A stretch of 32,196 bases of DNA. It comes from Candidatus Rokuibacteriota bacterium. GTDB lineage: Bacteria > Methylomirabilota > Methylomirabilia > Rokubacteriales > CSP1-6. The notes beneath the pieces are model-generated. The model had not been told where the DNA came from. It did not search any database and saw only the letters and a program-made list of their open reading frames with translations. Where the stretch lies: the NCBI GenBank assembly GCA_030647435.1, contig JAUSJX010000044.1, positions 1 through 32,196 on the forward strand. The letters are read 5' to 3'. The translations under genes and the position numbers were made by a program. Positions 3,741 through 25,657 of the stretch are shown piece by piece; within the stretch, counting starts at the first letter, position 1, and every line of letters starts with the position of its first letter.

Positions 3741-4072
3741 CGAGAGCGACCCTCCTTGGGGAGGACCGGGATGGCCGTCTCACCCTGTCGCTTGCCGTCC
3801 ACCCCGAATCGCTCGACCTTTCCTGCGCCATCGACACGTCCATATCCCGTGCGCCGGCTCATCGTGTCATAGAAGTCCACGCGGCCGGTGTCCCGATCGA
3901 CAACGGCGTATCCCGTGCGGCGCCCATGGGTATCGAAGAGGTCCACTCGCGCGGACTCACCGGCATGCGCGAGCCCCACGCCCAAGACGATGCCGATCAC
4001 CCCAAGACCCTGCTTCGACAGGTTCACGCGGAGCGGGCCGACACGAAAGGACTTCCGGAGAAACCAGCCCAT
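3737..4072 (-). CDS. DUF4236-like protein with repeats, 111 aa
   Basis: The N-terminus (MGWFLRKSFRVGPLRVNLSK, residues 1-20) matches the general form of the short DUF4236 domain. A Gly/Ile/Val-rich hydrophobic stretch follows (residues 23-37). The remainder carries about three copies of a roughly 20-residue unit with the pattern RVD-[LF]-[FY]DT-x2-RRTGY-x2-VD, the third degenerate. The ATG at 4072 is preferred over an in-frame upstream start at 4105 because GGGGGAGG lies 9 bases upstream of it. The gene is coupled to the HD hydrolase by an ATGA overlap and lies 85 bases after the helicase stop on the same strand. The role is unknown. A membrane-associated or sensor part is conceivable. Confidence 0.65.
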   Translation of the reverse strand: MGWFLRKSFRVGPLRVNLSKQGLGVIGIVLGVGLAHAGESARVDLFDTHGRRTGYAVVDRDTGRVDFYDTMSRRTGYGRVDGAGKVERFGVDGKRQGETAIPVLPKEGRSR

Positions 4073-4134
4073 CACACTTGTCCTCCCCCTTGGGAATTCC
4101 CCCACCTCGGCACACGGCGAGTCTCCCTCACCTC

Positions 4135-4153
4135 TGTGACAGGGGAGGTCACA
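4135..4153. promoter_or_regulatory. TGTGAC-N7-GTCACA inverted repeat
   Basis: TGTGAC (4135-4140) and GTCACA (4148-4153) form perfect 6-bp arms with a 7-base spacer. The site lies between the helicase stop codon (4158) and the DUF4236-like start (4072). The arms resemble the general form of CRP/FNR-family half-sites, but no promoter elements could be confirmed, so an operator role is speculative. Confidence 0.3.
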
Positions 4154-4157
4154 CCTC

Positions 4158-5822
4158 CTACGGGTCCAGAAAACGCCGGTTCAGCGGGTTCGTCGCCCGC
4201 ACCACCAGCTCCAGGCGCACCGTGGCGCGGGTCATGCCGGCGAAGAGCAGACGATCGGTTCTCTCCGGCTCCGGCGGATCCGGGTCCACGTCCACCAGGA
4301 TGACCGCCGGCGACTCCTGCCCCTTGAAGCGACCGACGCTGTCGAAGGTGATCTGCCCCGGCGTCGTGAGCTGATTGCCGAGGAGGTCGTACTCTCCGGT
4401 GAACCGGCGCAGCCGGTAGTTGCCGACTCGCTCGGGTCCGTCGAGCACTGACCGAGCCGCTCCAGGGGTGACCACGTGATAGGTCGTGAGCACGGCGATC
4501 TGGCTGTGAGAGAAGCCGCGGCCCAGGAGGTCGCCGATGACCTTGGCGACCAGGCGAGGCTGGTCCTCGGGCGCGTCGTACTGGCTGACGCCGACTCCGA
4601 GGCCGGGCAATTCGTTCATGGCCTCGAACTCGAAGGGCAGCGTGCGCCGGATGAACCGCGCGATGGACTGCGGTGATCGGTAGTTCGCCCGCGCGCGGTA
4701 GCCCACGAACCCGGGCAGGACCACTGATCGTTGGTCGCGGAGATTCTGATCGGGATCCTCGAGCCAGAGCACATCGTGAGGGTCCCGGAGGAAGAGCCCA
4801 AGGATGTCCGCCCAGACGGGCTCGAAATCCTGCCCTTCGTCCACGATCACCGTGTCGAACTTCCAGTGCTCGGGCACCGCCTCGGCGATCACGCGCTCGG
4901 ACACCGTCTCCCAGAACCGGGGGTCGCGCTTCATCTCGTCGAAATCGAGGCGCTGCCCCCTCTCCTCGAGAAACCGCGCGCACAGGCCGTTGAACGTCAC
5001 GACCATGCCTCCGGGCCGTACGACGACCTTGAGGCGCTCGCTCAGCGGCCGGTTGAAGCAGACCAGGAGCGGCCGCCGCTCGCGGCGGAGGGCATCGTCG
5101 AAGAAGTGCCGGGCGATCTGTGTCTTGCCCGATCCCGCCGTCCCGTAGATACGCAGGCGCAGGGGGTCCATCTCGAGCCCGCCGAGCAACCGCACCAGCC
5201 CGCCGCTCAGCCGCGTGAAGGCCTTCTCCTGGCCCGTCACGTGCGCGTGAATGTCCGGCACCAGCTCGAAGGTCTGACGGAGGAAGCCCCGGACCGTCTC
5301 GGCCCATGCCTCCCGATCGGGATTCCCCGGCCCCAGGCACGCGTCGATGCGCTCGGGGAGCTGGGCGCGCTGGGTAGCGTCCACGACCCGGCTTGGGTCG
5401 AGGGCCGCCGCGTTGATCCCCACGAGTCGATGGGCCGGGCAGTAGATCAGATAATCGAGATCGATGGCCCGGCCGCCCTGGGTCCGCCGGAACTTGTCGC
5501 GCACGTTGTCCAGCGCGCGCTGCACCTGATCCACGACGCTCTTGGACCGGTCGGCGTAGTGGGCGATCAGCCCGTCCTCGGTTTCCTCGAGCGTCCCGTC
5601 CTTCTGCTCGATGAGCAGCGCCTTGCCGGCCCGGTTGACGACCACGAAGTCGAGCTCGCCGAACACGGTCTCGCCCGGCCACTCCCGCGTCCAGTGGACA
5701 CCATGAAACACCGTGTAGCTATCGGGCAGCCGGGCCTGGAGCAGGCGCAAGGTCTCGATCTCGTGGCGATTGGCGCCAGCCAGCTCCAGCCGGGCAATGT
5801 CGGAGGGAACGATGCGCGCCAC
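4158..5822 (-). CDS. NERD-type nuclease / UvrD-like SF1 helicase fusion, 554 aa
   Basis: A predicted DNA nuclease-helicase. The N-terminal part resembles a NERD/PD-(D/E)xK nuclease, with D58 in GELDF and E72-x-K74 in LIEQKDG. The C-terminal half is a superfamily 1A helicase: Walker A around K233 (GTAGSGKT), Walker B at D328-E329 (VIVDEGQDF), motif III DPDQNL, motif IV ANYRS, a late motif with RFKGQESPAVILV, and motif VI FAGMTRATVRLELV. At 554 residues it is compact, lacking the large insertions of true UvrD, as is usual for NERD-fused helicases. It is the first gene of a minus-strand cassette and diverges from the ARPP-1 gene across 138 bases. Similar fusions occur in phage-defence islands. 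That role is inferred. Confidence 0.85.
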   Translation of the reverse strand: MARIVPSDIARLELAGANRHEIETLRLLQARLPDSYTVFHGVHWTREWPGETVFGELDFVVVNRAGKALLIEQKDGTLEETEDGLIAHYADRSKSVVDQVQRALDNVRDKFRRTQGGRAIDLDYLIYCPAHRLVGINAAALDPSRVVDATQRAQLPERIDACLGPGNPDREAWAETVRGFLRQTFELVPDIHAHVTGQEKAFTRLSGGLVRLLGGLEMDPLRLRIYGTAGSGKTQIARHFFDDALRRERRPLLVCFNRPLSERLKVVVRPGGMVVTFNGLCARFLEERGQRLDFDEMKRDPRFWETVSERVIAEAVPEHWKFDTVIVDEGQDFEPVWADILGLFLRDPHDVLWLEDPDQNLRDQRSVVLPGFVGYRARANYRSPQSIARFIRRTLPFEFEAMNELPGLGVGVSQYDAPEDQPRLVAKVIGDLLGRGFSHSQIAVLTTYHVVTPGAARSVLDGPERVGNYRLRRFTGEYDLLGNQLTTPGQITFDSVGRFKGQESPAVILVDVDPDPPEPERTDRLLFAGMTRATVRLELVVRATNPLNRRFLDP

Positions 5823-5960
5823 GGTTCTGCCCTGGGTGTGGGCGCAGGGAGCGTACCACGCGAGGGGGATCGTGCGGTCTGTGACCTTCCCTGTCAGAGC
5901 ACCCGCCTATCCTGCATTCCACAGCACAGAACCCGCAGCGTCATCGAGGAGGAATTGTTC

Positions 5961-6893
5961 ATGCCCCATGCGGCCGAAATCAGTCCGATCGCGCGAATAT
6001 TCGGAAACATCTTGGTAGGCGAGCCCCTGAGGCACGGAGCGCTCACCGTCGTCCCCATGCTCGCGCCCATGCTCACCGAACCCGCGTGGCTCACGCTGGC
6101 CGAGGCCGGCGACCGGGTGCAGGTCACCGAGGTCGACGAGGCGGGCTCCGTCCCCACCCTCAAGGTCGCCAACATGGCCGACCGGCCGCTGCTCCTCCTC
6201 GACGGCGAGGAGCTGGTGGGCGCGAAGCAGAACCGCATCCTCAACGCCACCGTCCTCGTCGCCGCCCGCACCGAGACGACGATCCCCGTGAGCTGCGTCG
6301 AGCAGGGGCGCTGGGGCTACCGCGGGCGCCACTTTGCACCGGGCGACGCCTCCCTCTTCGCCTCCGTGCGCCAGAAGAAAGCGGCCTGGGTGACGCGCTC
6401 GATTCGCGCCGGCCGCGGGCACATGGCCGACCAGGGCGGCGTCTGGGACGAGCTCGCGTCCAAGACCGCCGAGCATAGCGTCGCGAGTCCGACCGGAGCG
6501 ATGCGTGACTTCTACCAGCGGTACGAGGCGGAGATGGCCGACGCGCGCCGGGAGCTTGCGCCGGTGCCGGGGCAGATAGGTTCGCTCGTGTACCTCTCCG
6601 GCCGCTGGGCGGGCATGGACCTCCTGGCCGGTCCGAGCCTCTTCGGGAAGGTTTGGCCGCGCCTCTGCGCCGGGTATGCGGCGGATGCGATTCGCCGGAA
6701 ACCCAGCAGCTGCCTCATGCCGAGCCCGAGCGCGGTGCTCCGCCGGCTCTCGGGGTGTCCCGTCGAAGCAGCCCAGGCCGTGGGCCTCGGGACCGAGTAT
6801 CGCCTCACCGGGCAGACGACTGTCGGCGCCGCCCTCATCGCGGACGATCGCGTCGCCCACCTGATGGCCTTCCCAGTCGTCGGCGCCAGGTAA
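5961..6893 (+). CDS. ARPP-1 family protein, 310 aa
   Basis: The whole protein resembles the ARPP-1 domain, an uncharacterised family associated with ARG/rhodanese/phosphatase neighbourhoods in conflict-type systems. Visible features are a conserved-looking core around residues 60-100 (VANMADRPLLLLDGEELVGAKQNR is positions 70-93), the segment IPVSCVEQGRWGYRG (about 111-125), and a C-terminal half with YLSGRWAGMDLL and the closing HLMAFP. The frame is open far upstream, but ATG at 5961 is chosen because GAGGAGG (5947-5953) gives an 7-base spacing and the upstream part is antisense to the helicase gene. No catalytic residues can be assigned. It opens the plus-strand operon that leads to the AddAB-like pair, although a 150-base gap follows it. 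Confidence 0.75.
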   Translation: MPHAAEISPIARIFGNILVGEPLRHGALTVVPMLAPMLTEPAWLTLAEAGDRVQVTEVDEAGSVPTLKVANMADRPLLLLDGEELVGAKQNRILNATVLVAARTETTIPVSCVEQGRWGYRGRHFAPGDASLFASVRQKKAAWVTRSIRAGRGHMADQGGVWDELASKTAEHSVASPTGAMRDFYQRYEAEMADARRELAPVPGQIGSLVYLSGRWAGMDLLAGPSLFGKVWPRLCAGYAADAIRRKPSSCLMPSPSAVLRRLSGCPVEAAQAVGLGTEYRLTGQTTVGAALIADDRVAHLMAFPVVGAR

Positions 6894-6906
6894 AACTTCT
6901 GTGCTA

Positions 6907-6935
6907 TTGACAAGGCCTTGCGACCCGCCGAACAT
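6907..6935 (+). promoter_or_regulatory. Candidate sigma70 promoter before the TY-Chap gene
   Basis: TTGACA at 6907-6912 is a perfect -35 box, followed after 17 bases by GAACAT (6930-6935), a poor -10 match. It lies about 110 bases upstream of the start at 7044, in the only sizeable gap of the plus-strand operon. The -10 is weak, so confidence is low. Confidence 0.3.
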
Positions 6936-7043
6936 CACGGCACTCCCTGCCGCGGGGGAACCAGCTCACCCGTCAGTTGCAGCGGTGTCTGTCGAGAACT
7001 CGAGCACGACGACGAGTCGAAACGCTGCAAGCAGGAGATGGCC

Positions 7044-8501
7044 ATGAAAACGAAGGCGCTGCTGGCGCCGGTTCCTCACCTCCAGCTCGCGAATGCCCTG
7101 GAGGTGTGCCGGCGCGAGGGAAGGGTTGCCTTCGCCAGTAACGTCTGGGAGCTCTCCGGCGACCTCCAGGCCGGGATGCCCGTCCTCCTCTACGCCTCAA
7201 GAAGCAGCTTGCCCGAGGGCAAAGTCCCTGAGCCCGAGGCGCAGTGGCGTCACCCGCACGTTACCTGGCTGGGCTCCTTCGTCCGGTACGTGTCCGCGGT
7301 CGACGGCCGTCATCCGGAAACGACAAGCTTCCAGCCCACCGTCATGGCCCCGGGCGAGCAGGACCATATTCTGGGCTTCTATGAGGTCGCGGACCTCGAG
7401 CAGTTACCCGAGGAGCGATGGATCCCCGTTGAGCAGCTCCGGGACCAAGACGACCGCCCGTACACGCAGGCGTTCATCCCCGGACGCCCGATCATCGTCT
7501 TCTGGGATCGGCCGACCGAGGATGCGGCGACCACGCCACCGGCCAGCAGGTCAGAGCCTTCCGATGGTGCGGAGTCTTCGTGGTCCAGCTTCACCCAGCA
7601 TCTCGCGGCCGGCATCGCGAAAATGCAGCGCGATCAATTTCTCATTCTCACGGTCACCCCCCTTCCAGATGGGGCCGAGCGCCCGTGGTACTACGTGCAG
7701 TTCGCCTGCGGCGGCGAGGAGGGCTTCCGAGCCGAAGCGGTGTCGAATAAGTTCCTGGCCGATCGGTGGAAGCTTCCGGAGAAGGCAGCCGAGACACTCT
7801 TCCGGCTTGGTTGGCATGCCCCCGAGCCCAGCGCCGAGCTCAAGGGGGGAAAGGTTAACTACTGGTCCGACTGGCCGGCCCCTCCGCACGCCGCCGCGAT
7901 GGCACAACTCGCCGTGTCGACGCTTCGCCGTGTGTACGGGGTGGCCTCGTCGGACCGGCTCGAGTATAAGTACTTCGACAAGGCCGGTCAGCAGCTGGAG
8001 CTCGCTGACCTCGGCCTTCGCCGTGAGGTTGCCACCAAGGGCTGGGACGGTACCGTGGAGCGCCTCCGACCAATCGTGGAGAAAACGCTCCGTGAGGTTC
8101 TGCACGTTGGCGAGCTCAAATACGATGAGCACGGCGACATTCCCATCCGGTTCGGCAGCGCGATGGTGTTCGTCCGTCTGGTTGGCGGGGAGACCCCGAA
8201 GGTCCAAGTCTTCTCTCCGCTCCTCTGGGAGGTCTCGTCGACCAGCGGCCTCGTCGAGGCGCTGAACGACATCAATACGCGTCTCTCGTTCGGACGCGTG
8301 TTCTGGGACGGCGAGCAGGTCATCGCCGCGATCGACCTTCCGGCTCCTGGACTGTCGGGCGAGTACGTCGCGCGGGCCTGCTTCGAGATCGGCTCCCTGG
8401 CGGATCACTTCGACGAGGAGCTTGTTGAACGCTTTGGCGGCAAAACGATGTTCGGCGTGTCGAAAGTGTCGAAGCCGTACGAGCCTCCCGGCTACCTGTG
8501 A
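7044..8501 (+). CDS. TY-Chap / YbjN-like chaperone-fold protein, 485 aa
   Basis: Three parts can be seen. Residues 1-155 form an unassigned globular domain (VAFASNVWELSG, GMPVLLYASRSS, FIPGRPIIVFWDRP). A Pro/Ser/Ala-rich linker spans about 155-175. Residues 175 to the end form a tandem chaperone-like region: a segment starting WSSFTQHLAAGIAKMQRDQF resembling a TY-Chap domain, and a C-terminal YbjN/type III secretion chaperone-like domain (IPIRFGSAMVFVRLVGGETPKVQVFSPLL within about residues 370-400). Such domains are known from predicted conflict systems, with unknown biochemical function. ATG at 7044 follows a GGAG at a 6-base spacing. The next gene starts 15 bases after the stop, so co-transcription with the WYL regulator is likely. 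Confidence 0.65.
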   Translation: MKTKALLAPVPHLQLANALEVCRREGRVAFASNVWELSGDLQAGMPVLLYASRSSLPEGKVPEPEAQWRHPHVTWLGSFVRYVSAVDGRHPETTSFQPTVMAPGEQDHILGFYEVADLEQLPEERWIPVEQLRDQDDRPYTQAFIPGRPIIVFWDRPTEDAATTPPASRSEPSDGAESSWSSFTQHLAAGIAKMQRDQFLILTVTPLPDGAERPWYYVQFACGGEEGFRAEAVSNKFLADRWKLPEKAAETLFRLGWHAPEPSAELKGGKVNYWSDWPAPPHAAAMAQLAVSTLRRVYGVASSDRLEYKYFDKAGQQLELADLGLRREVATKGWDGTVERLRPIVEKTLREVLHVGELKYDEHGDIPIRFGSAMVFVRLVGGETPKVQVFSPLLWEVSSTSGLVEALNDINTRLSFGRVFWDGEQVIAAIDLPAPGLSGEYVARACFEIGSLADHFDEELVERFGGKTMFGVSKVSKPYEPPGYL

Positions 8502-8516
8502 GCATTGCGGGGCTTC

Positions 8517-9605
8517 ATGGCGCGCGGGAACCAACTCACCCGGCAGTGGCATCTGCTACAACTTCTCGACCGACCAACCGGAGTCGTGGTCGATGACGCG
8601 GCGCGTGCCCTCGACTGCGCCGTCCGGACCATCTGGCGTGACCTTCGCGTGTTACAGGACGCCGGCTTCCCGATCTACGACGAGCAGGACGCCGACGGGC
8701 GCCGGTCAGTCTGGCGGGTCGATGACACGTTCAAGCAGCGGCTGCCGCTCAAGCTCACCCTGGCCGAGCTGGCCGCCCTCCTGATGAGCCGCGAACTGCT
8801 CGCGCCCGCCGGCGCCGGCGGACTCGGCCCTGCCATCACCTCCGCCTTCGAGAAGATCGGAGGCGTCCTCAGCAAGGACGCCCTCGGCCTCATCGACCGC
8901 ATGCGCGAGACCATCGGCGTGCGCACCTTGGGCGCCAAGCTCCAGGCTCCGGCCGCCGAGCACGTCGCGGCGATCCAGGGCGCGCTCATGGAACGCCGGC
9001 GGCTCCGGCTCCGCTACTACTCCATGAGCCGCGACGAGGTCAACGACCGCCGCGTGGATCCCTATCACCTGACGCTCTACGCCGGCGGGTTCTACCTCGT
9101 GGGCTACTGTCATCTCCGTCAGGCGGTGCGCATCTTTGCCGTCGAGCGCATCCGCGAGTGCGAGGTGCTCGCCGTCCGCTTCGACGTGCCCGAGAAGTTC
9201 GACGTGGAGAAGTACCTCGCGGGCGCCTGGGGCATCATCCGCGGCGACATCGTCAACGTGAAGGTCCTTTTCGCGCGCTCCCTCGCGCGCTACATCCGCG
9301 ACCGCCTCTGGCATCCGACCCAGAAGTTCCGCGACCTCGACGACGGCCGGCTCGAGATGACGCTCCGGGTCGCGGACACGCTTGAGGTGCGGCGGTGGAT
9401 CCTCGGATTCGGCCCAGAAGCCGAGGCCGTCGAGCCTGCGGCTCTCCGCGAGGCACTCCGGCACGATGCCGAGGCCCTCGCCCGGAGGCTCACGCCCCAG
9501 CGCATCCTTCCAGCGCAGGTACCGGCGTCGCCCGAGGAGGCGCGGTTAGGCTCTTCGCGGGCGCGAATGCGCCGCGAGCAGGAAAACTTTCGCACCAGCA
9601 CGTAG
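8517..9605 (+). CDS. WYL-domain transcriptional regulator, 362 aa
   Basis: A typical bacterial WYL regulator. The N-terminal winged helix-turn-helix occupies residues 1-65 (QWHLLQLLDRPTGVVVDDAA, RTIWRDLRVLQDAGFPI), a helical linker follows, the WYL domain spans about 150-220 (RRLRLRYYS, RRVDPYHLTLYAGGFYLVGYC, RIFAVERI), and a C-terminal WCX-like domain covers about 230-330 (FARSLARYIRDRLWHP). WYL proteins sense ligands, often nucleic acids or nucleotides, and commonly regulate defence genes. That they do so here is inference. ATG at 8517 is preferred to the in-frame TTG at 8505, which has no better ribosome site. The extreme C-terminus from about residue 335 is a basic tail beyond the usual domain. 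Confidence 0.88.
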   Translation: MARGNQLTRQWHLLQLLDRPTGVVVDDAARALDCAVRTIWRDLRVLQDAGFPIYDEQDADGRRSVWRVDDTFKQRLPLKLTLAELAALLMSRELLAPAGAGGLGPAITSAFEKIGGVLSKDALGLIDRMRETIGVRTLGAKLQAPAAEHVAAIQGALMERRRLRLRYYSMSRDEVNDRRVDPYHLTLYAGGFYLVGYCHLRQAVRIFAVERIRECEVLAVRFDVPEKFDVEKYLAGAWGIIRGDIVNVKVLFARSLARYIRDRLWHPTQKFRDLDDGRLEMTLRVADTLEVRRWILGFGPEAEAVEPAALREALRHDAEALARRLTPQRILPAQVPASPEEARLGSSRARMRREQENFRTST

Positions 9606-9625
9606 GAATCTCCTAAGGAGCCTCA

Positions 9626-10168
9626 ATGAGTGACGCCGTCGTGACCCTAATGCGGGCGCTGGACTTTGCAGCCCGAAAGCACCGCGATCAGCGGCGCAAG
9701 GGAGCCGCTGCCGAGCCCTACATCAACCATCTCACCGAGGTTGCCCTCTTGGTGGCGGAGGCGACCCGGGGCAGAGACCGCCTCGCCGTGCTGGGCGCCC
9801 TGCTCCACGACACGATTGAGGACACGACAACGACCAAAAAAGAGCTGGAAGCCGAGTTCGGCGCGGAGGTCGCGGCACTCGTGGCAGAGGTCACCGACAA
9901 CAAGCGCCTGCCCAAGCACGAGCGCAAGCGCCTGCAGGTCGAGACGGCCCGCCACAAATCACGGCGCGCCAAGCTGATCAAGATCGCCGATAAGACGAGC
10001 AACCTGCGGTCGGTCATCGAGAGCCCGCCGGTCAAGTGGAACGCCACGCGACGCCGAAAGTACCTCGAATGGGCGGCGCGCGTCGTCAAGGGCTGCCGCG
10101 GGGCGAACGCGCGGCTGGAGGCCCGGTTCGACAAGGCCTACCGTCGCGGCCGTCGGGTGCTCGGGTAG
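9626..10168 (+). CDS. Small SpoT/MESH1-like HD hydrolase, 180 aa
   Basis: A single HD domain of the same size as MESH1-type small alarmone hydrolases. Metal and substrate residues are intact: H35 (PYINHL), H61-D62 and E65-D66 (LLHDTIEDT), and D122 and N126 (IKIADKTSN). No synthetase domain is present. AAGGAG (9615-9620) is 5 bases from ATG, one of the strongest ribosome sites in the window. It lies 20 bases after the WYL regulator and 9 bases before the AddB-like gene, so it is embedded in the nuclease operon. Expected chemistry is removal of pyrophosphate from (p)ppGpp or reduction of a related nucleotide. Whether the substrate here is a defence signal or a housekeeping alarmone is unknown. 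It is a distant paralogue of the HD protein at 3081-3740. Confidence 0.85.
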   Translation: MSDAVVTLMRALDFAARKHRDQRRKGAAAEPYINHLTEVALLVAEATRGRDRLAVLGALLHDTIEDTTTTKKELEAEFGAEVAALVAEVTDNKRLPKHERKRLQVETARHKSRRAKLIKIADKTSNLRSVIESPPVKWNATRRRKYLEWAARVVKGCRGANARLEARFDKAYRRGRRVLG

Positions 10169-10177
10169 CCGGGGCGC

Positions 10178-13100
10178 ATGGACCCGTTCGCCTCCCGGCT
10201 CGCTGAGCTCTGCCGCACCGAGCGCACCCGCGCCAAGTGGGTGGTCGTGCCCTCGCACGCCCTTGGGCACACGCTCGGTGAGCGGCTCGCGCTCGCAGGT
10301 ACGAGCTGGGCGAACCTCCGCTTCACCACCCCGGTCGATCTCGCCCTACCGATGGCGGCTCCGTTCCTCGTCGAGCGCGGAATCGATCCCGCTCCAGACG
10401 AGATCGGCCCGGCCCTGATCACACGGCTGCTTCTCGAGCTGCCGGGCGCGGTCCCCGTCTACTTCCGGGAGATGGCCGAGCAGCCGCGGATGGCCGAAGC
10501 GTTGTGGGCCACGATCCGCGAGCTGCGCCTGGCGGGGATGCGTGCAGCTGATCTTCGCCTCGAGGCGTTCACGAGCGCCGCCAAACATGCCGAGCTTCAG
10601 GCCCTGCTCACCGCGTACGAGGAACACTTGGCGACGCGCAAGCTCGCCGACACTGCCGATGTCTACCGCGAGGCGCTCCAGCACCTCGATATCTGCCACG
10701 TCCGCCCCGAGGACCTCTGGATCGAGCTGCCCGGCGCCATCTGGGCTCCGCTCCAGCAAGCACTCCTGGACAAGCTTCCCGCGCTCCGGATCACGCCGCA
10801 CACGCTCCGAATCCCCGGCCTTCCGGAGCCCGCACGTCTGCGCGGCGCGGTCGAGTCGCTGGAGCCATCGCTTCGCGCCGACTCTGACTTGCTCGCCTTT
10901 CTCATGCGGCCAGGCGATGCGCCGGCACCGAAGGGTGACGGCAGCCTGGCCATGTTCCGCGCCGGTGGCCGGGAAGCCGAGGTCGAGGAGGTTTTCCGGC
11001 GTGTCCTCGCAAGCGGTGCGCGCCTCGATGACGTCGAAGTGGCCTGCGCGTCGGCCGACTACGTCACCCTCCTCTGGGAAAAGGCGCAGCGCCACGGCTG
11101 GCCCGTGACCGTCGGCCCCGGCCTCCCGGTCACGCTGACGCGGCCGGCGCGCGCCCTGCTGGCCTTCTCAGAGTGGGTGGAGGGTGGCTACCCGGCTGTC
11201 GGACTCCGCCGCCTGCTCCAGTCCGGCGATGTCCAGCTGGATCTGGCCGATGGCCCCTCGGCCGGCCAGGCCGCGCGACTGCTCGCGCAATCCGGGGCGA
11301 CATGGGGACGCGAGAGCTATGCCCCGGCCATGACAGGCCTCGCCCGCTCGTACCGGCAGCGCGCAGCCGACGTCGAGAACGACGACGACGAGGCGCGAAC
11401 GCGCTACGTCGAGCGCGCCGCGCAGGCCGAACGACTGGGCGCCTGGATCGCCGGGATCCTGGAGCTCGTCCCACCGGCGGCGGCGGACGGCCGGCTGCCC
11501 CTGAGTGAGCTGATCGACGGATGCATCACGCTCGTGCGCGGCACCGCGAGCAAGCAGAACGAGATGGACGGCGCCGCGGCGGCCGTGCTCGCGGATGCGC
11601 TCGTGGCGCTGCGGGCCGTCGGGTCCCTCGCGCGCGGCGCGCGCGAGGCGTTCGCGCTGATCCGCCACCAGATCGAGCCGCTCACCGTGGGCGCCGATCG
11701 GGCGCGGCCCGGCCATCTCTTCGTGACCATGCTGCGCCAGGCCGGGCATGCCGGCCGGTCCCAGACCTTCGTGGTCGGGCTCGAGGAGGGCCGCGTGTTC
11801 CCAGTGCTCATGGAAGACGCGGTGCTGCTCGACGACGAGCGGCGGGCCCTGAGCCCCGCGCTGCCGACCTCCGCGGATCGTGTGGGGGAAGCGCTCTACG
11901 CGGTGGTCTCTCGCCTAGCGGCGCTCGGCGGCTCGGTGTGCCTGAGCTTCTCCTGCCGCGATCTCCGGCGGCACCGTGAGACCTTCCCGTCCTGGCTCCT
12001 CCTTCAGGCCCTGCGCGTGGTCAAGCGACACCCGGACTGGACGTATCAAGATCTGAATCGGGAGCTGGGCGAGCCCGTGTCGCTCGTTGCGTCGGGGGCC
12101 GACCGGGCGCTGAGCGACGCCGGGTGGTGGCTCGCGAAGCTCAATGGCCTGGGACCCGTGGTCCTCCCGAGCGTGCACGCCCACTTCCCCTGGCTCGCCC
12201 AGGGAGAAGCGGCCGAGCTGGCACGAGAGTCCGACGTCCTCACCGCCTATGACGGCCTCGTCCCGGCGGCCGGGCCTCGGCTCGATCCGCGCGCAACGGG
12301 TCACGCCATCTCCGCCACGGCGCTCGAGGACCTCGCCAAGTGTCCGTTCCGGCACTTCCTCAAACGCGGCCTGAAGCTCGATGCCACCGAGGAGGCCGAG
12401 CCCGATCGTGACCGCTGGCTGGGCCCGGCGACGCGCGGCTCGTTGCTCCATGGTCTCTACGCGGCCATCCTGCGGGAGCTGCGCGAGCGGAAGGAGCAGG
12501 CTGATCCGAAACGGCACGGCACCTGGGCCCGCGAGGTGGCCGACGCCCGCTTGGCGGAGCTGCGCGCGCTGATCCCGCCGCCCTCGACCGATGTCTTCGA
12601 CCGCGAGCGGCAGGAGCTACTCCGGGACCTCGACCTCTTCCTCCGTCTCGAGGCGGCCGCAAAGGAGCGTCGGCCCGTTGGCTTCGAGGTCTCGTTCGGC
12701 GGCGGAGCCACCGAGGGCGAGCCCCTGGCGCAGGCCGAGCCCGTCATGATCGACCTGGGTACCGGCCTTCGCTTCGCTCTGCGCGGACGGATCGACCGGA
12801 TCGACCGGCTGGCCGATGGCAGCTACGAAATCATCGACTACAAGACGGGCCGGTATTGGCCGGACAACTACACGGGAACGTTCCAGGGCGGCCGTCTGCT
12901 CCAGCATGCCCTCTATGCTCTCGCCGCGACCCATCTCCTTCGGCGCCAGGATCCGAAGGCGCGTGTGAGCGCCAGCTCGTACTATCTGCCGACGGCCCGC
13001 GGCCAGGCCGAGCGCGCCACCTTTCCCGCCAAGGCGGCGGGCCTCGAGGATGTGCTCCGCGACCTGTTCGACATCGTGGGCCAAGGCCTCTTCGTCCACA

Positions 13101-13240
13101 CCGCAGACGAGGATGACTGCAAGTTCTGCGAGGTGGGACGCGCGTGCGGGCGCGACCCCTATGCCCGCGCGGAACGGAAGCTCGAGAACGATGCCAATGA
13201 CTCGCTCAGGCCGTACTGGAGGCTCGGCGAGCATGAGTGA
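10178..13240 (+). CDS. AddB/RexB-like PD-(D/E)XK exonuclease subunit, 1020 aa
   Basis: Predicted partner of the downstream AddA-like helicase in a two-subunit end-processing nuclease. The N-terminal two-thirds is an inactive helicase-like scaffold. The position where a Walker A could occur (VVPSHALGHTLGERLA, residues 24-39) has no lysine. The C-terminal nuclease has D873 (GRIDRID) and D887-Y-K889 (EIIDYKTGRYW). Cysteines C722 (AKCPFRHF), C981, C984 and C990 form the C...C-x2-C-x5-C pattern of an AddB/Cas4-type [4Fe-4S] cluster clamping the nuclease domain. Length is near that of AddB proteins (about 1000-1170). The stop overlaps the AddA-like start by 8 bases. A housekeeping recombination role is possible, but the WYL/HD/ARPP-1 setting suggests an accessory version. 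Confidence 0.85.
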   Translation: MDPFASRLAELCRTERTRAKWVVVPSHALGHTLGERLALAGTSWANLRFTTPVDLALPMAAPFLVERGIDPAPDEIGPALITRLLLELPGAVPVYFREMAEQPRMAEALWATIRELRLAGMRAADLRLEAFTSAAKHAELQALLTAYEEHLATRKLADTADVYREALQHLDICHVRPEDLWIELPGAIWAPLQQALLDKLPALRITPHTLRIPGLPEPARLRGAVESLEPSLRADSDLLAFLMRPGDAPAPKGDGSLAMFRAGGREAEVEEVFRRVLASGARLDDVEVACASADYVTLLWEKAQRHGWPVTVGPGLPVTLTRPARALLAFSEWVEGGYPAVGLRRLLQSGDVQLDLADGPSAGQAARLLAQSGATWGRESYAPAMTGLARSYRQRAADVENDDDEARTRYVERAAQAERLGAWIAGILELVPPAAADGRLPLSELIDGCITLVRGTASKQNEMDGAAAAVLADALVALRAVGSLARGAREAFALIRHQIEPLTVGADRARPGHLFVTMLRQAGHAGRSQTFVVGLEEGRVFPVLMEDAVLLDDERRALSPALPTSADRVGEALYAVVSRLAALGGSVCLSFSCRDLRRHRETFPSWLLLQALRVVKRHPDWTYQDLNRELGEPVSLVASGADRALSDAGWWLAKLNGLGPVVLPSVHAHFPWLAQGEAAELARESDVLTAYDGLVPAAGPRLDPRATGHAISATALEDLAKCPFRHFLKRGLKLDATEEAEPDRDRWLGPATRGSLLHGLYAAILRELRERKEQADPKRHGTWAREVADARLAELRALIPPPSTDVFDRERQELLRDLDLFLRLEAAAKERRPVGFEVSFGGGATEGEPLAQAEPVMIDLGTGLRFALRGRIDRIDRLADGSYEIIDYKTGRYWPDNYTGTFQGGRLLQHALYALAATHLLRRQDPKARVSASSYYLPTARGQAERATFPAKAAGLEDVLRDLFDIVGQGLFVHTADEDDCKFCEVGRACGRDPYARAERKLENDANDSLRPYWRLGEHE

Positions 13241-16200
13241 GCGACGGCGCCTCCCCGACCAGCAGGCGCGCGACCGCATCGAGGCCGCGCTCGACATCAA
13301 CCTGCTCGTGGAGGCGGGCGCGGGCTCCGGCAAGACGCAAAGCCTGGCGCGGCGGATGGCCGCGGGCATCGCTGCGGGGGTGTACGAGGTCGAGGGCATG
13401 GCGGCGGTCACCTTCACCCGCAAGGCGGCCGCCGAGCTGCGGGCCCGCTTCCAGCTCGAGCTGGAGAAGCGACTCGGCGCGGACGACGACCCCGCTCGCC
13501 GTGAGCGGCTCCAGGTCGCACTCCGGCATCTGGAACGGCTCTTCGCGGGGACGATTCACGCCTTCTGCGCCCATCTGCTGCGCGAGCGGCCCGTCGAGGC
13601 CGGCGTGGCGCCGGGGTTCACGGAGCTGGACGAGATCGAGGATGCCGAGGTGCGCGGGCGCGCCTGGCGCGACTACCTCGACCGCGAGCGCGCGCTGGGG
13701 TCGCGGCTGCTGGCGGAGCTTCAGGACACCGGCATCCGACCGGCCGATCTCGACGAAGCTTTCCGGACAGTCTGCACCTTCGCCGACGTCACCTTTCCTC
13801 CGGGCGATCGCGAAGCGCCCGATCCGGCGCCGGCCTGGGCGGCGTTGGATCAGTTCTGGCAAGCGCTGAGCGCGCTCCTCCCCGACCCCTGCGCGCCGGA
13901 CACGACCTGCAAGGTCCAGAGGGCCGCCCGGCGCTATCGGGGGCTGCTTCGCGTCGCGGACCGGGAGCGCCCGGCCACGCTCGCCCAGCTCCTCGACTGC
14001 TGGAGCGGCAAGCTCTCGATCACGCAGAAATGGTGGCCCGGCGGCTCCACGGCCACCAAGGCGCTGAAGGCTCGGATCGATCGTCTTCTCGGCGATTTCC
14101 AGGAGGCAGCCGTCCATCCCTTCCTCGCGGCCTGGGGAGCGTACATCTATCGCCTCGCGATCACCCTGCTGTCGGCCGCCCGCAACTTCGCGAGCGAAGC
14201 GCGGCGACGGGCGCTCACCCTCAACTATGGCGATCTGCTCCAGGTGGCGGCGCGGCTCCTGCGCGACAACCTCCCCGTGCGAGCGGCGCTTCAGCGCAAG
14301 TATCGCTGGCTCTTCGTTGACGAGTTCCAGGACACCAATCCGCTTCAGGCCGAGGTCATCCTGCTGCTTGCTGCCGAAGCGCGCGGCGAGGCGGACTGGA
14401 CCCGCGTGCGGCCTCGCCCGGGCGCGCTCTTCGTGGTGGGCGACCCCAAGCAGTCGATCTACCGTTTCACCGGAGCCGACATCGACATCTATAGCCGCGT
14501 GCGCGACATCATCCAGCGCGAGGGCGGCGAGGTTGTCACCCTCACCGCCTCGTTCCGATCCATCCCCGCGTTGTGCGAGTGGGCCAACGGCGTGTTCCCG
14601 GACTTCTTTCCTCCCGAACCCACGCCGCAGCAGCCGGCGTTTCATCCCCTCGAGCCCGTGCTCCCAGGCGGCCAGGCGAGCCGGTCGGGCCTCCGCACCC
14701 TCACCATCCCCGACAGCATCGAGAAGGACGGGGTGCATGCCGCCGACGCCCAGGCCATCGCCCGCTACATCCGAGCGGCCGTGGAGAGCGGGACCAACGT
14801 CTGGAGCGACTTTCTCATTCTCACGAGGAAGAAGAAGGGGCGGCTTCACGAGTACCTGGCCGCGCTCGACGCGCTCCACATCCCGGCATCCGTCACCGGC
14901 TCGGTTGCCTTCAGCCGCTCGCGTGAGGTCTCGGTCCTGGCCGACCTGCTGCGGGTTCTCGCCGACCCGGACGACGGTGTCGCCCTGGTCGGACTTCTGC
15001 GCGGACCGCTCTTCGGCGTGAGCGACGAGGAGTTGTTCCAGCATCACGAGGCCGGCCTCGGCTTCATCCTGACGGCCCCGCTTCCCGATGAGGCCTCGGG
15101 GCCCGTCGTCGACGCCATCAGGAAGCTCCAGCCCATGTTCAAGTTGACCCGCACCCTGCCCGTCGCGGCCGCCGTGGAGCGCATCCTCGAGGAGACCGGG
15201 ATCCTTGCGCGGGCCGTGGCCGTCACGCCGGGCGCCGCCGAGGCCGGCGATGTCCTGTACGCCCTCGACCGCGTGCGGCAGATCACCGAGGTTGGCGGCA
15301 CCCTCGCGACTGCCGCCGAGGCGCTCGACAAGGATTTCGAGGCCGCCGAGATCGAGTCTATTCCGCTCGAGCCCGGCCGGCAGGATGTCGTACGCGTGAT
15401 GAATCTCCACAAGGCCAAGGGCCTCGAGGCGTCCGTGGTCTTTCTCGCTGACCCGCTCGCCGGCGTCAAGGCCCGCGCGGGCGTGCGCGTGATCCGCGAG
15501 GGCGCCCGAGCCACTGGCTACCTGCGCCTGATCCGTACGTGGGGCGAGGGCCGCTCGGACGAGCTGGCCGAGCCCGCGGGCTGGGAGGAACACGCGGCGG
15601 CGGAGCTGGCTTATGTCGAGGCCGAGGAGAAGCGTCTCCTGTACGTGGCCGCCACGCGCGCCAAGGATCTCCTCGTCGTCAGCCGCTGGGCCAAGGATGG
15701 AAAGGGCGAGCGCCCGTGGGAGCCGCTGGCCGCCTATCTTGCCGCGGCGCGCGAGCTCAAGGTCCCGCCCGCGATTGTGGTGACACCTCGCGCCCTGCCA
15801 GATCTGAGTGTGGGCGCGCGCGCGGCTGCCGAGTCCGCGCGCAACGCCGCTCGCGAGGCCGCCGCTCAAGCTTCATGGGTCGTCGAGTCCGTCACGGGGA
15901 CCGCCCATCGGGCCGGTCCCTACGGCCACCCGATCTCGGAGGGCCGTACCCGCGAGCCCGACACCGGCATGGCCTGGGGCAGCCTGATTCACGCCCTGCT
16001 CGAGCACGCCATGCGCGGCCCCGCCCGCGACCGCGCTCACCTGGAGCGTCTGGCCAATTGGCTCACCGTCGAGAACCCGGAGCTTCGTCGCGTCGTCCCG
16101 GAGGCGCTCGACACCGTCGAGCGTGTGACGGCGTCGGAGTTCTGGCAGCGGGCAACGGCCGCGGACCAGCGTCTCGTGGAGGTCCCGTTTGCGGTCAAGG

Positions 16201-16448
16201 TCGAGGCGGGTGACGGGCCTCCGAAGATCCTCCACGGCGTAATCGACCTGGCGTTCAGAACGTCGGCAGGCTGGGAGCTAGTCGACTACAAGACGGACCA
16301 GGCGACCATCCACTCACTTTCCGCTCGCTACCATGGCCAGGTTCAGGCGTACTGCCGCCACTGGGCGGTCGCCACTGACGCGCCCATCAGGTCGGCGGCG
16401 ATTTACGCAGTCCGCACCGGCGAGGTCTCCGAGAACCTCCAGCCGTAA
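13233..16448 (+). CDS. AddA-like UvrD helicase with C-terminal nuclease, 1071 aa
   Basis: A superfamily 1A helicase-nuclease. Walker A is GAGSGKT with K34, followed by motif Ia VTFTRKAAAEL, motif Ic GTIHAFCAHLLRERP, Walker B D363-E364 (FVDEFQD), motif III VVGDPKQSIYRF, motif IV ASFRSIPALC, a late motif at RVMNLHKAKGLEASVVFLAD, and motif VI LLYVAATRAKDLLVV. The C-terminal RecB-type nuclease has WGSLIHALLEH from residue 915, D1005 (GVIDLAF) and D1018-Y-K1020 (VDYKTD). All catalytic positions look intact. ATG at 13233 lies inside the end of the AddB-like gene, typical of stoichiometric addB-addA coupling. The reading frame is open upstream, but only as a shadow of the preceding gene. It is the last gene of the plus-strand operon and converges on the minus-strand gene ending at 16496. 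Confidence 0.9.
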   Translation: MSERRRLPDQQARDRIEAALDINLLVEAGAGSGKTQSLARRMAAGIAAGVYEVEGMAAVTFTRKAAAELRARFQLELEKRLGADDDPARRERLQVALRHLERLFAGTIHAFCAHLLRERPVEAGVAPGFTELDEIEDAEVRGRAWRDYLDRERALGSRLLAELQDTGIRPADLDEAFRTVCTFADVTFPPGDREAPDPAPAWAALDQFWQALSALLPDPCAPDTTCKVQRAARRYRGLLRVADRERPATLAQLLDCWSGKLSITQKWWPGGSTATKALKARIDRLLGDFQEAAVHPFLAAWGAYIYRLAITLLSAARNFASEARRRALTLNYGDLLQVAARLLRDNLPVRAALQRKYRWLFVDEFQDTNPLQAEVILLLAAEARGEADWTRVRPRPGALFVVGDPKQSIYRFTGADIDIYSRVRDIIQREGGEVVTLTASFRSIPALCEWANGVFPDFFPPEPTPQQPAFHPLEPVLPGGQASRSGLRTLTIPDSIEKDGVHAADAQAIARYIRAAVESGTNVWSDFLILTRKKKGRLHEYLAALDALHIPASVTGSVAFSRSREVSVLADLLRVLADPDDGVALVGLLRGPLFGVSDEELFQHHEAGLGFILTAPLPDEASGPVVDAIRKLQPMFKLTRTLPVAAAVERILEETGILARAVAVTPGAAEAGDVLYALDRVRQITEVGGTLATAAEALDKDFEAAEIESIPLEPGRQDVVRVMNLHKAKGLEASVVFLADPLAGVKARAGVRVIREGARATGYLRLIRTWGEGRSDELAEPAGWEEHAAAELAYVEAEEKRLLYVAATRAKDLLVVSRWAKDGKGERPWEPLAAYLAAARELKVPPAIVVTPRALPDLSVGARAAAESARNAAREAAAQASWVVESVTGTAHRAGPYGHPISEGRTREPDTGMAWGSLIHALLEHAMRGPARDRAHLERLANWLTVENPELRRVVPEALDTVERVTASEFWQRATAADQRLVEVPFAVKVEAGDGPPKILHGVIDLAFRTSAGWELVDYKTDQATIHSLSARYHGQVQAYCRHWAVATDAPIRSAAIYAVRTGEVSENLQP

Positions 16449-16495: not shown

Positions 16496-17101
16496 TCACT
16501 CCTTCGCCCTCGACTTCACCAGCATCTCGTCTACCGCATCCGACAGCGTGAAGAGCTCCTCGAAACCCCTGGCGGCGAATTCGAAGAGCTCGTCCGGACC
16601 CGAGATCAGCCGAACGCGTAGCTGGTCGTCCGTGTCCGTCAGGTACTTCCCCAACGGCGCGTCGGCATCGTCGGTGTCGGCGTTGAGCCAGGGCTTGGCC
16701 CTATCGCCGAGCACGCGCCGCAACTCGCGCGCGAACTCGATCCGCTCCGCGTCCTTCATCTTGAGAAACTCCAGGTTCTCGGTACAAACCCACAGATATG
16801 GATGGGTGTCTTTGATACTCCGGTAACCCATCGGTGCAAAGCTTCCGACGACGTAGTAGACCTCGGCCTCGTCCTTGCGCCGATTTACCCAGGCGGGTTT
16901 CCACGCATAGAATTCCGCCCTCTTCGCGTCGGTCTCGAGTGCGTACCCGCGCTCCTCGCCCCATTTCTCGAGACGGTTCCCCACATCATCGATCAATTCC
17001 CCAATTCGGCCCTGTAGTTCGTCGTGCGCCTCCATCAATCCGATCACGTCATGCCATCGTTCCAAGATCAGCTTGTCAACGTTCGTATACTCATCCGCCA
17101 T
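16496..17101 (-). CDS. Unknown 201-aa protein, last gene of the DUF6361/PLD/helicase cassette
   Basis: No family recognised. The protein is acidic and soluble. Residues 1-55 are helical (ERWHDVIGLMEAHDELQGRI...), the centre has many aromatic residues (AEFYAWKPAWVNRRKDEAEVYYVV, about 62-86, then YLWVC), and the C-terminal third is helical with Asp-rich stretches (NADTDDADAPLGKY). GGGGAGG is 7 bases upstream of ATG at 17101. The gene starts 49 bases after the helicase stop on the same strand, so it is probably the fourth gene of that operon. It may be an adaptor, inhibitor or small accessory subunit. This is inference from position only. Confidence 0.6.
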   Translation of the reverse strand: MADEYTNVDKLILERWHDVIGLMEAHDELQGRIGELIDDVGNRLEKWGEERGYALETDAKRAEFYAWKPAWVNRRKDEAEVYYVVGSFAPMGYRSIKDTHPYLWVCTENLEFLKMKDAERIEFARELRRVLGDRAKPWLNADTDDADAPLGKYLTDTDDQLRVRLISGPDELFEFAARGFEELFTLSDAVDEMLVKSRAKE

Positions 17102-17150: not shown

Positions 17151-20100
17151 TCACGTCCTGATTCGTACGAATTCGTTCAGCAAGGCGTGGTATCCCTCGA
17201 CGCCTGCGTGCGGCACGACGTCCGGTCTGGTTCGCACAAACATATCAAGGAGTTCACGTAGGCGAACCGTCATGTCGGCTTCTCCGCCTAGTGCTGGTGA
17301 CACGGCCATAGTCGCATCTATAGCCTTGCCGATCTCGGGCAGTGCGATGAACTGGTCCAGCACTTCGCGGAGCCGCTCGATCGAGACAGTTGTCTCTCTC
17401 GCCCGGCCTCGATCTACCCCGTGAGCCCCGGCCTGCGCCTGCATCGCCCCTACCTGGTGGAGCAGTTCGCGCAGACCAGCGACATCCATCGCCTTCGGGA
17501 GGCGTCGTCCATCCCTCCTGGCAACTCCGCGAAGCTCGGCGTAGCGGTCGAGCAACGCGGCGACTTGGTCGGTCATGGGCGCCGGACCCATTGATGTCGT
17601 CAGGCTCCAGCGGTCGGGCTCTGTACGCACGGCACCGCGGTCACCGGCCAAGTCGGTTCCGAACCCCGGCAGTTTACGCTGAACCGAAGGCGGCGGGGTC
17701 AAATTGATCCTGAGATCCTCAGCTGCCCGCTTGCGTGCAGGTTCATCCAGCTGCTGCAACAGGAAGTCGACAACGTCTTGCTGCCTGGCCTGGCCAAAAG
17801 CCATGCGATAGACCGCCAGCGACCTCCGGATCGCGTCTGCACGCGCGGCGTCCCGGCTGAGCGGCAGCGCGAGCACGTGCCGCTCGATGCGCGCGGCACC
17901 GGGGTCGTCCACCAGGTACAGCCAGTACGGACTAAGGCCCGAGTCGTCGCGCATGTCAGTCGCCTCGGCGGCGGCAAACATGCGCGCCCAGGGATCCGGG
18001 CCCTCGCCCGCCGTGAGTACGGCAGCGCCGTGTTTTCGCGCCACGTTCTTGCGAACGGCATGCCCCTTATACCGATGCACTCGGCCCTCTCGCTGCTCGA
18101 GGTCTACAGGATTCGACGGCACGTTCCAGTGCACCACTGCGTGGCAGTAGGGATGGAAGTCGAGACCCTCCTGTCCGACGGATGTGGAGCACAGCACGAA
18201 CGGCCAGAACGGCGAGTTGAAAGCGCGCTGCACGGACCTGTTTCGATCAACCCCTCTGACGTCCTCAAGGCCCTGCCCACCGTAACTCACGGCGAACCGC
18301 GTCCGGAACCCGAGCTTCTGCGTCGCAGGCAGGTGTCCCGTTGCGTCGAGTTGTACATCGTCGGCCGTCAACGTGGCTGTCATGATGGTCACACTCTCGA
18401 CCATACGCCCGGCGACTTTGTCCATCGCTGCGGTAAGCGTTCGGTCCCGATCGCCAATGGCACCCGACAGGAAGTGCGCGTACTCGTCAAGGACGGCCTG
18501 CAACCCACCTCGAGCTGCGTATTCGAGCACGCGGCGCCAGTATGCTTCGCCAGAGTCGATCACAGTGGTGCGCGTGATGGCGGAGATGACCTCCACTTCG
18601 TTGAACAGCGAGCGGAGCGCGTCCGCGACCCGCCCGGCCGCATTGCGCGTGGCGATCTGCGGCGCCAGGTGCAATCCGCCCACGACCCGGCACAGTGCCC
18701 GGAGCGCGGTTACCGCCGGGCCGCCGATCGCGAGCCAAGCGACTACCTGCGCAAGATCTGCGGGTCGTAGGCCAAGCGTGACGCCGCCCTCCACGAGCGT
18801 CTTCGCCGCCGCGACATGTTTGGCCCAAGCGCTGCCTGCCGCCTGTGACTCCTCGGCCAACGCACCCACGTCTTCGTCTAGGTCACGACGGCGATCAGAG
18901 CCCTCGCCTCGCCAGTCGGTCGCCAAACGAGGCTGCTCAAACCAGGCGCGCGTCGCGGCATTGTGGCGATGCAGATCCAATAGGATGGGCGCAGCCCAGT
19001 ACCAGCGTTCGTCCGCCCGCCCCGTCGCTTGCTCCTGGCCCGGCAACTCCCGCAGTGCCCTTTCGACCCGGCGCTCGGTTTCTTCTCGAACCGAATCAAG
19101 TGAGGGCAGGATGCCGTCCTGATGACGGCGCAGATCAGACGCGATCGCCAGCGGATCGCAGAGTTGGGCGAGCACGATCGAGGGGTACATGAGTCCCAAT
19201 GTCGTCATGCCACCAGGTCGCCCGCCGTCGTCCCTGAACTGAAGCAGTCGGGACCGGCCCCTCCGCGTCCCCCTGGTGTTCGCGGCGGGCTCGCCCTCCA
19301 GTGGAACACCAAACAGCCGCCGCTCCGCTTCGTAGCTGAGCAGCGTCGCCACCACTTTCGGCACGACCTGCCAAGCGGAGAAGACCAGGCTCTTGGTGAA
19401 CGTCGCGTGGTCAGCGTTCGCAAATGGGCCCTCGAGCCCGTAATAGGGCAACGCCGGTGGGATCCAGAACAGCTCCCCCACGCCTCGATCGAGGGTGACG
19501 GCGAGGAGCGCCCGCAAGCGAGCATTGGCAGGATCAATCAGCCGGTACGATTCGATGTCGGTCCGCGAAAGGATGGCATCCGGAACGCTCCTCAGGGCAT
19601 CCTGCAGAGCCGTCCCGGCGCCAGGACCCCTGACCGCCTCCAGGACCTGGCGCTTGAGCTGGTAGTCGTCCATGAAATTCAGCAGATAAGAGGCCGACTT
19701 CCAGTACTCCAGCGTGTCGCCATGGCCAACTGCACGACCGATCCGTTGTAGGGCGAGGTAGTGCGACACATCTGCCGGCCGCAGCTGGAGCGTGGGTGGC
19801 ACGTCGACGAGCATGCCGCTTCGATCCTCGGTCACCGCCAACCGCTCGGTTCGAACCATCACGCGCCGCAGGCGGTTTTCGATTTCCTGCCTCCTCCGCA
19901 CGACGGAGTCTGCCGTCTGGGCGTTGTAGGTGAACAACTGCTGCCCATAGGTCGACAAGAGGCGGCGGATGTCGGCAATCGCCTCTGGCGGTTCGGCTTG
20001 CTCTCCGCTTCCGCCATGCAGGAACTCGAGTGTCTTGATGAAGTCGCCGAAATGGTCATCCCCCTCGGCGTCCTCGTGCAGCGTGTACATCTTGTAGGGC

Positions 20101-25580: not shown

Positions 25581-25657
<77 letters not shown>

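Follow-up and report, generated by a model that had tools for sequence, protein, structure and literature searches.

WYL proteins encoded near defence genes are mostly known to act as local regulators, and several of them are repressors. The palindrome of the repressor CapW covers the −10 element, and the local operon is repressed (PMC9122588). SiwR, by contrast, is a homodimeric WYL activator with a 19-bp imperfect palindrome upstream of the −10 element (PMC10693628), and in PafBC it is the binding of single-stranded DNA (ssDNA) by the WYL domains that turns the regulator on (PMC11804915). Iyer et al. (2022; PMC9503650) predicted a class of conflict systems centred on an ADP-ribosylglycohydrolase (ARG), with ARPP, TY-Chap1 to 3 and WYL or Nudix regulators, an HD phosphatase akin to the alarmone hydrolases, and REase-fold nucleases accompanied by helicases; ARPP–WYL is one of the pairs that they list. 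Among small HD hydrolases, a bacterial Mesh1-L enzyme hydrolyses ppGpp, pppApp and NADPH (PMC9765508). Precedent of another kind for common control of unlinked defence systems comes from the Gac/Rsm pathway of pseudomonads (PMC11888443).

Here we describe a locus of a Candidatus Rokuibacteriota bacterium (phylum Methylomirabilota) in which an ARPP-1 gene, a TY-Chap gene, a WYL gene and a MESH1-type HD hydrolase gene precede an AddB–AddA pair. The window, that is, the whole stretch of 32,196 nucleotides that was analysed, is an entire 32-kb contig of a 5.8-Mb genome (G000). What is new here is a palindrome with a phased −10-like hexamer, which is found upstream of ARPP-1 and of the operon of a second HD hydrolase.

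Gene content of the operon and distribution of its AddBA pair

The genes for ARPP-1, the TY-Chap3/TY-Chap1 protein, the WYL protein, the MESH1-type hydrolase (HD1), AddB and AddA all lie on the + strand between positions 5961 and 16448, and each is supported by a Pfam match (Table 1). They form one tight run, as the initial annotation had noted: the gap between the TY-Chap and WYL genes is about 3–15 bp, that between WYL and HD1 20 bp and that between HD1 and addB 9 bp, while addB and addA overlap by 8 bp. The sole longer gap in the operon is that from ARPP-1 to TY-Chap (about 150 bp). Scans of the operon for sigma-70 promoters and terminators gave nothing useful.

Directly downstream, and convergent with the operon, is a complete Azaca system, in front of which no WYL box (see below) was found. 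The left end of the island holds an IS1380-like transposase gene (289–2049, + strand; a weak match, under the curated cut-off), and a tRNA-Met gene (25581–25657, − strand) separates the conflict genes from a housekeeping block (enolase, ispA, xseA). The tRNA-Met was ruled out as an attachment site, a repeated tRNA end being absent from the window. On another contig of the same genome (C45; L174, 1899–6855), a second WYL-like gene is followed by the genes for a NERD helicase that shares 65% identity with the product of the window's 4158–5822 gene, and for a PDC-M55C-like protein; this locus is a paralogous conflict island within the genome.

Table 1. Positions of the operon, its flanking genes and the putative promoter elements within the window.
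Feature	Position	Strand	Evidence or remark
HD2, second small HD hydrolase, 219 aa	3081..3740	−	Pfam HD_4, 87 bits
111-aa gene, DUF4236-like N-terminus (by eye)	3737..4072	−	First gene behind the second box; 4-bp overlap with HD2
−10-like GAGACT of the second box	4120..4125	−	
Second WYL box (putative), TGTGACCTCCCCTGTCACA	4135..4153	−	Perfect copy (no mismatch); precedes the DUF4236-like gene and HD2
NERD-UvrD helicase	4158..5822	−	Divergent from the AddBA operon
First WYL box (putative), TGTGACCTTCCCTGTCAGA	5880..5898	+	62 bp upstream of the ARPP-1 ATG; conserved before ARPP-1 in G033, G013 and G006
−10-like hexamer TATCCT	5908..5913	+	9 bp past the first box
ARPP-1 domain protein (PF20208), 310 aa	5961..6893	+	Pfam, 297 bits
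TY-Chap protein: undefined N-terminal domain (about 1–160), TY-Chap3, TY-Chap1	7044..8501 (alternative start 7038)	+	Pfam PF22552, PF22551
HTH-WYL-WCX transcription factor, PafC/SiwR-like	8517..9605 (alternative start 8505)	+	Pfam WYL, WCX, HTH_PafC
HD1, MESH1-type small HD hydrolase	9626..10168	+	Pfam HD_4; phmmer; motifs
AddB-like subunit, C-terminal PD-(D/E)XK nuclease (PDDEXK_1), four conserved cysteines	10178..13240	+	
AddA-like helicase-nuclease subunit (UvrD + PDDEXK_1)	13233..16448	+	
Unnamed 201-aa gene	16496..17101	−	Between the AddBA operon and Azaca
Complete Azaca system: ZacC, ZacB, ZacA	17151..24080	−	PADLOC, 1127, 537 and 398 bits

Motif inspection and an alignment of six relatives agreed with the intact AddA and AddB motifs and the Fe–S cysteine set reported in the initial annotation. 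AddA combines SF1 helicase motifs with a C-terminal PD-(D/E)XK nuclease (GAGSGKT, DEFQDT and GVIDL...VDYKTD), and its best match among solved structures is AddA. AddB, whose gene lies beside addA, carries GRIDRID, DYKTG and LQHALY, a C-terminal PD-(D/E)XK nuclease and four Fe–S cysteines (C722, C981, C984 and C990) that are invariant across the six relatives; its match to the B. subtilis AddB structures is confined to the nuclease part. The NCBIfam cut-offs for AddA and AddB (TIGR02784/TIGR02785 and TIGR02786/TIGR02773) were missed, with 243.7 versus 860.75 bits and 39–45 versus 486–904 bits, respectively. Judged by its sequence, the pair is a divergent clade of AddAB: it resembles AddAB and AdnAB in its UvrD-type AddA with a PD-(D/E)XK domain and in its AddB with a C-terminal nuclease and four cysteines, but it differs from them in falling far under the curated cut-offs, in its accessory distribution and in its WYL-box promoter.

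Close relatives of AddB were found in 7 of the 95 genomes of the phylum examined (this one included). These genomes belong to scattered families, and the four other members of the genus that were examined have no such relative. Further relatives occur in Acidobacteria and Nitrospira; the search of genome contigs for AddB relatives recovered five loci only. The genes next to AddBA differ between all loci compared. Because the distribution is patchy and the neighbours differ, a housekeeping addAB operon was ruled out, and the pair is accessory. Conserved housekeeping synteny in close relatives was looked for and was not seen, so that the view that this addAB is not packaged as a housekeeping operon held up; its box, moreover, is common to conflict operons. 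A viral origin was also ruled out, since neither the AddB alignment nor TY-Chap had relatives in viral contigs.

Comparison of related loci, which come mostly from draft metagenome assemblies and whose genes are codon-based calls made in this analysis, revealed which genes travel together. The operon of G033 consists of ARPP-1, WYL, AddB and AddA and is missing HD and TY-Chap. A second, partly broken locus of G013 contains ARPP-1, WYL, an AddB-like protein (by eye) and the beginning of an AddA-like gene. ARPP-1 and WYL are followed in G006 by genes for a DUF4143 ATPase and for a type I restriction subunit. The WYL gene of G016 and an AddBA pair at some distance from it are divergently oriented, WYL precedes an AddBA-like pair on a Salinibacter plasmid, and cas6 adjoins the WYL gene of both G090 and G094. 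On the basis of these loci, the WYL/AddBA pairing recurs and ARPP-1 travels with WYL, while HD and TY-Chap, both of them also missing from the AddBA loci of G006 and G016, are additions of the window. The window's TY-Chap protein was the sole TY-Chap1 match in the 95 phylum genomes, and its N-terminal domain had no Pfam match. A small protein resembling this domain is encoded in a locus with WYL, helicase, ATPase and DUF1156 genes on a Bradyrhizobium plasmid (NZ_CP088279.1; L110, 1720–14384).

A phased palindrome and the genes behind it

The WYL protein has an HTH-WYL-WCX architecture and is nearest to PafBC, its best PDB match; the recognition segment of its HTH is invariant across nine relatives. 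Alignment of the ARPP-1 upstream regions of four genomes revealed a 19-bp imperfect palindrome, TGTGACC-N4-CTGTCACA, hereafter the WYL box. A genome-wide pattern search allowing up to two mismatches found 22 sites in seven related genomes (G000, 3; G003, 2; G033, 6; G013, 4; G006, 2; G034, 2; G016, 3) and one site in G054, compared with none in eight control genomes without a close WYL. The reversed pattern, used as a control, gave 1 site over all 16 genomes, and a first-order Markov simulation put the chance expectation at about 0.7 sites per 5.5 Mb for two mismatches and produced no site with fewer mismatches than that. G003 has two boxes, yet no WYL match at a cut-off of 1e-60.

The box is phased with a −10-like element. 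At 18 of 25 sites, the sequence exactly 9 bp past the box fits the hexamer pattern nAnnnT, whereas each of the other spacings from 0 to 24 bp was seen at 0–2 sites; the 9-bp phasing holds in 14 of the 21 sites outside the set from which the box was discovered. The exact mycobacterial PafBC motif was tried and rejected, since the ARPP-1 upstream region matched it at only 10 of 12 positions, no better than two other window sites; the palindrome and its spacing, which are common to orthologous promoters, stood the test. In Nitrospira sp. BO4 (L039, 5267), a 16/19 match to the box with a correctly spaced TATTGT lies about 550 bp upstream of AddBA.

Because the box lies at a fixed distance upstream of the −10 element, we read the WYL protein as an activator. 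The promoter geometry matches that of the activators rather than that of CapW: the protein resembles PafBC and SiwR in its HTH-WYL-WCX architecture and in a palindrome at fixed distance upstream of the −10, which is moreover 19 bp long and imperfect, as for homodimeric SiwR. It differs from them in that its targets are mainly defence operons, in the sequence of its palindrome and in its phylum, and its sensing of ssDNA is predicted. Like BrxR and CapW, it is a WYL protein tied to phage defence genes (PMC9122601, PMC9122588); unlike the CapW operator, the box stands 9 bp upstream of the −10 and is present also at loci unlinked to WYL. The description of the operon as WYL-regulated is thus supported by the promoter box, WYL and box being linked by co-occurrence and position.

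Clear conflict targets are found at about half of the 22 sites, and the rest precede unassigned genes or, as with some two-mismatch sites, look chance-like. In G033, boxes lie ahead of a Cas3-Cas8a-Cas7 operon and of a CARF/Csx1...Cas10 operon (type I and type III CRISPR-Cas), as well as ahead of a type III methyltransferase and its AAA partner. Box-headed loci elsewhere encode ARPP-1, HNH and a Schlafen-type helicase (G003) or ARPP-1-WYL-PDC-S01-HsdR (G006). In G090 and G094 the box is followed by a small nucleotidyltransferase-like gene (by eye) and then by Cas8b-Cas7b-Cas3b, with WYL-Cas6 adjoining. AddBA itself has a box upstream in G016, and in G006, where the pair is unlinked to WYL, the box stands 22 bp ahead of the AddB start. 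On contig C116 of G033 (L175), one box precedes an 81-aa gene (5220–5541; orthologous site on contig C47 of G013) and another a MoxR-like ATPase and a 643-aa protein (5710–8521); these genes are candidate new conflict genes.

The targets that PADLOC or Pfam could name are mostly defence loci and, AddBA apart, include no classic repair gene. This composition argues against the main alternative, namely a DNA-damage repair regulon. In that reading WYL would be an activator of the PafBC type that responds to damage independently of SOS, AddBA would have been acquired as an enzyme for double-strand-break repair, and CRISPR and restriction loci would carry the box as part of a general ssDNA response. 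The established role of AddAB enzymes in repair counts for such a regulon, as does the PafBC match of the WYL protein; several relatives' AddBA pairs stand alone amid housekeeping genes, and the closest AddBA relatives, on contig C9 of G013 and in G054, G039 and Acidobacteria, have metabolic or transport genes around them and no WYL box. We rank it first among the alternatives because PafBC also raises the repair enzyme AdnAB in mycobacteria (PMC8151990), and the same wiring fits repair. Set against these points are the patchy distribution of AddBA and the presence in G000 of another enzyme, a separate single-chain UvrD-PDDEXK protein that is kept in one congener. On balance we consider a repair regulon unlikely.

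Relation to ARG-centred systems and to MESH1-type hydrolases

The initial annotation regarded TY-Chap and ARPP-1 as predicted conflict-system parts, in agreement with the published parts list (PMC9503650). Pfam identified the associated parts of ARG-centred systems in the operon, namely ARPP-1, TY-Chap1/TY-Chap3, a WYL regulator, an HD phosphatase and an REase-fold nuclease with helicase, including the named ARPP–WYL pair. Full membership was nevertheless ruled out, because the defining glycohydrolase, ARG (PF03747), is absent from the whole genome. It is also absent from G013, G006, G016 and G034, and the one copy in G033 lies on another contig (C4). Pfam found no rhodanese-phosphatase in the operon, and the operon further differs from ARG-centred systems in that its nuclease is a full AddBA pair, its promoter layout is of the activator type and its trans regulon includes CRISPR and restriction loci. 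A working mode similar to that of the ARG-centred systems is possible.

A specific version of such a mode is an ARG-less variant directed against phage ADP-ribosyltransferases, in which ADP-ribose products would be the substrates of ARPP-1 and HD, modified proteins the ligands of TY-Chap, AddBA a back-up nuclease and WYL an ADP-ribose-sensing repressor. This alternative overlaps the explanation that we prefer, in that both are conflict systems, and it draws on the shared parts named above and on a Pimelobacter plasmid that groups DUF6569/ARPP, ARG and a RecB-like nuclease. We regard it as quite unlikely, given the missing ARG and rhodanese-phosphatase and a box that lies upstream of the −10, as for an activator, and not over it, as in CapW.

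HD1 is, as the initial annotation proposed, a MESH1-like enzyme. It matches human and fly MESH1 above the bacterial RSH or SAH proteins of known structure (phmmer scores of 166 bits for human MESH1, structure 3nr1, and of no more than 63 bits for the bacterial RSH/SAH structures), and the metal-binding and catalytic motifs of its single HD domain are intact (YINH, HDTIED, KIADKTSN). It differs from MESH1 and Mesh1-L in being encoded in a defence-type operon, and its hydrolase role is predicted. A search of G000 with PF04607 found no alarmone synthetase besides the housekeeping RelA/SpoT. A role for HD1 as a toxSAS antitoxin was ruled out, as there is no second RelA_SpoT domain in the genome and no small alarmone synthetase gene lies beside HD1.

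When the neighbourhoods of MESH1-type HD genes were compared across 26 Acidobacteriota genomes, most proved to be vertically conserved or metabolic, with about 11 of the 26 loci having a conserved vertical neighbourhood in common. None had AddBA neighbours, so that linkage of HD and nuclease as a general rule was ruled out. On a Burkholderia multivorans plasmid (NZ_CP020399.1; L112, 1149–7230), genes for an SbcD-like metallophosphoesterase and a YhaN/SbcC-like ATPase are followed by a MESH1-type HD gene; this HD beside an SbcCD-like DNA-end nuclease pair is taken as an isolated case. A Methylocalor plasmid (OZ026885.1; L087, 5010–7961) brings together a MESH1-type HD, a TY-Chap and a PD-(D/E)XK-like nuclease (by eye).

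Direct gating of the AddAB nuclease by an alarmone or nucleotide signal under control of the HD hydrolase, the signal-gated machine envisaged in the initial annotation, is the least supported alternative and in our view highly improbable: although HD1 lies between wyl and addB in the tight run, both HD genes of the window belong to operons headed by a WYL box, and HD and TY-Chap homologues are again adjacent, tail to tail, on the Methylocalor plasmid, HD is missing from the AddBA loci of G033, G006 and G016, RelA/SpoT is the sole synthetase found in the genome, MESH1-type genes occur mostly elsewhere, in metabolic neighbourhoods, and Pfam found no ligand domain in AddA or AddB. We favour reading the HD genes as members of a regulon under common control, not as nuclease-gating partners.

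A predicted WYL-dependent defence regulon

From its sequence and that of its relatives, the locus is probably an inducible conflict operon, most likely anti-phage, that belongs as one node to a defence regulon under the control of the operon's own WYL protein. A WYL dimer would bind the 19-bp palindrome and, as the phase-locked layout suggests, would activate transcription from the −10 element 9 bp downstream, in the manner of PafBC and SiwR. By analogy with PafBC, the trigger would be nucleic-acid debris, most likely ssDNA, bound by the WYL domain during infection or DNA damage, and the activated protein would then raise expression of its own operon and of the other operons that carry a box. 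Once induced, AddBA may load on free double-stranded ends, for instance where a restriction or CRISPR nuclease has cut, and break down or process the linear DNA of an invader. ARPP-1, TY-Chap and both HD hydrolases would be induced together with it. The most likely substrates of the HD enzymes are alarmones, NADP(H) or ADP-ribose-type nucleotides, from which they would remove 3′- or 2′-phosphates; such phosphate removal could serve to reset a signal or to protect the host.

A broader proposal can be put forward only tentatively: one WYL activator and one phase-locked box may run a genome-wide immune regulon of Rokubacteria in response to infection ssDNA, comprising type I and type III CRISPR-Cas, restriction, AddBA and MESH1-type hydrolases, in which the hydrolases would clear nucleotide signals and AddBA would destroy DNA ends. 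In the literature searched, in which subscription papers were scarce, no WYL protein acting in trans on CRISPR, restriction and AddAB genes was reported.

The 19-bp box and its fixed spacing to the −10 make the entire regulon readable from sequence, and they predict a trans-acting activator of CRISPR, restriction and an AddAB nuclease. Since unassigned genes stand behind the same box, it offers a route to further conflict genes, and it lets one ask directly whether ssDNA is the alarm. Finally, our results suggest that an enzyme of the AddAB type can form part of an accessory set of defence genes under common regulation.
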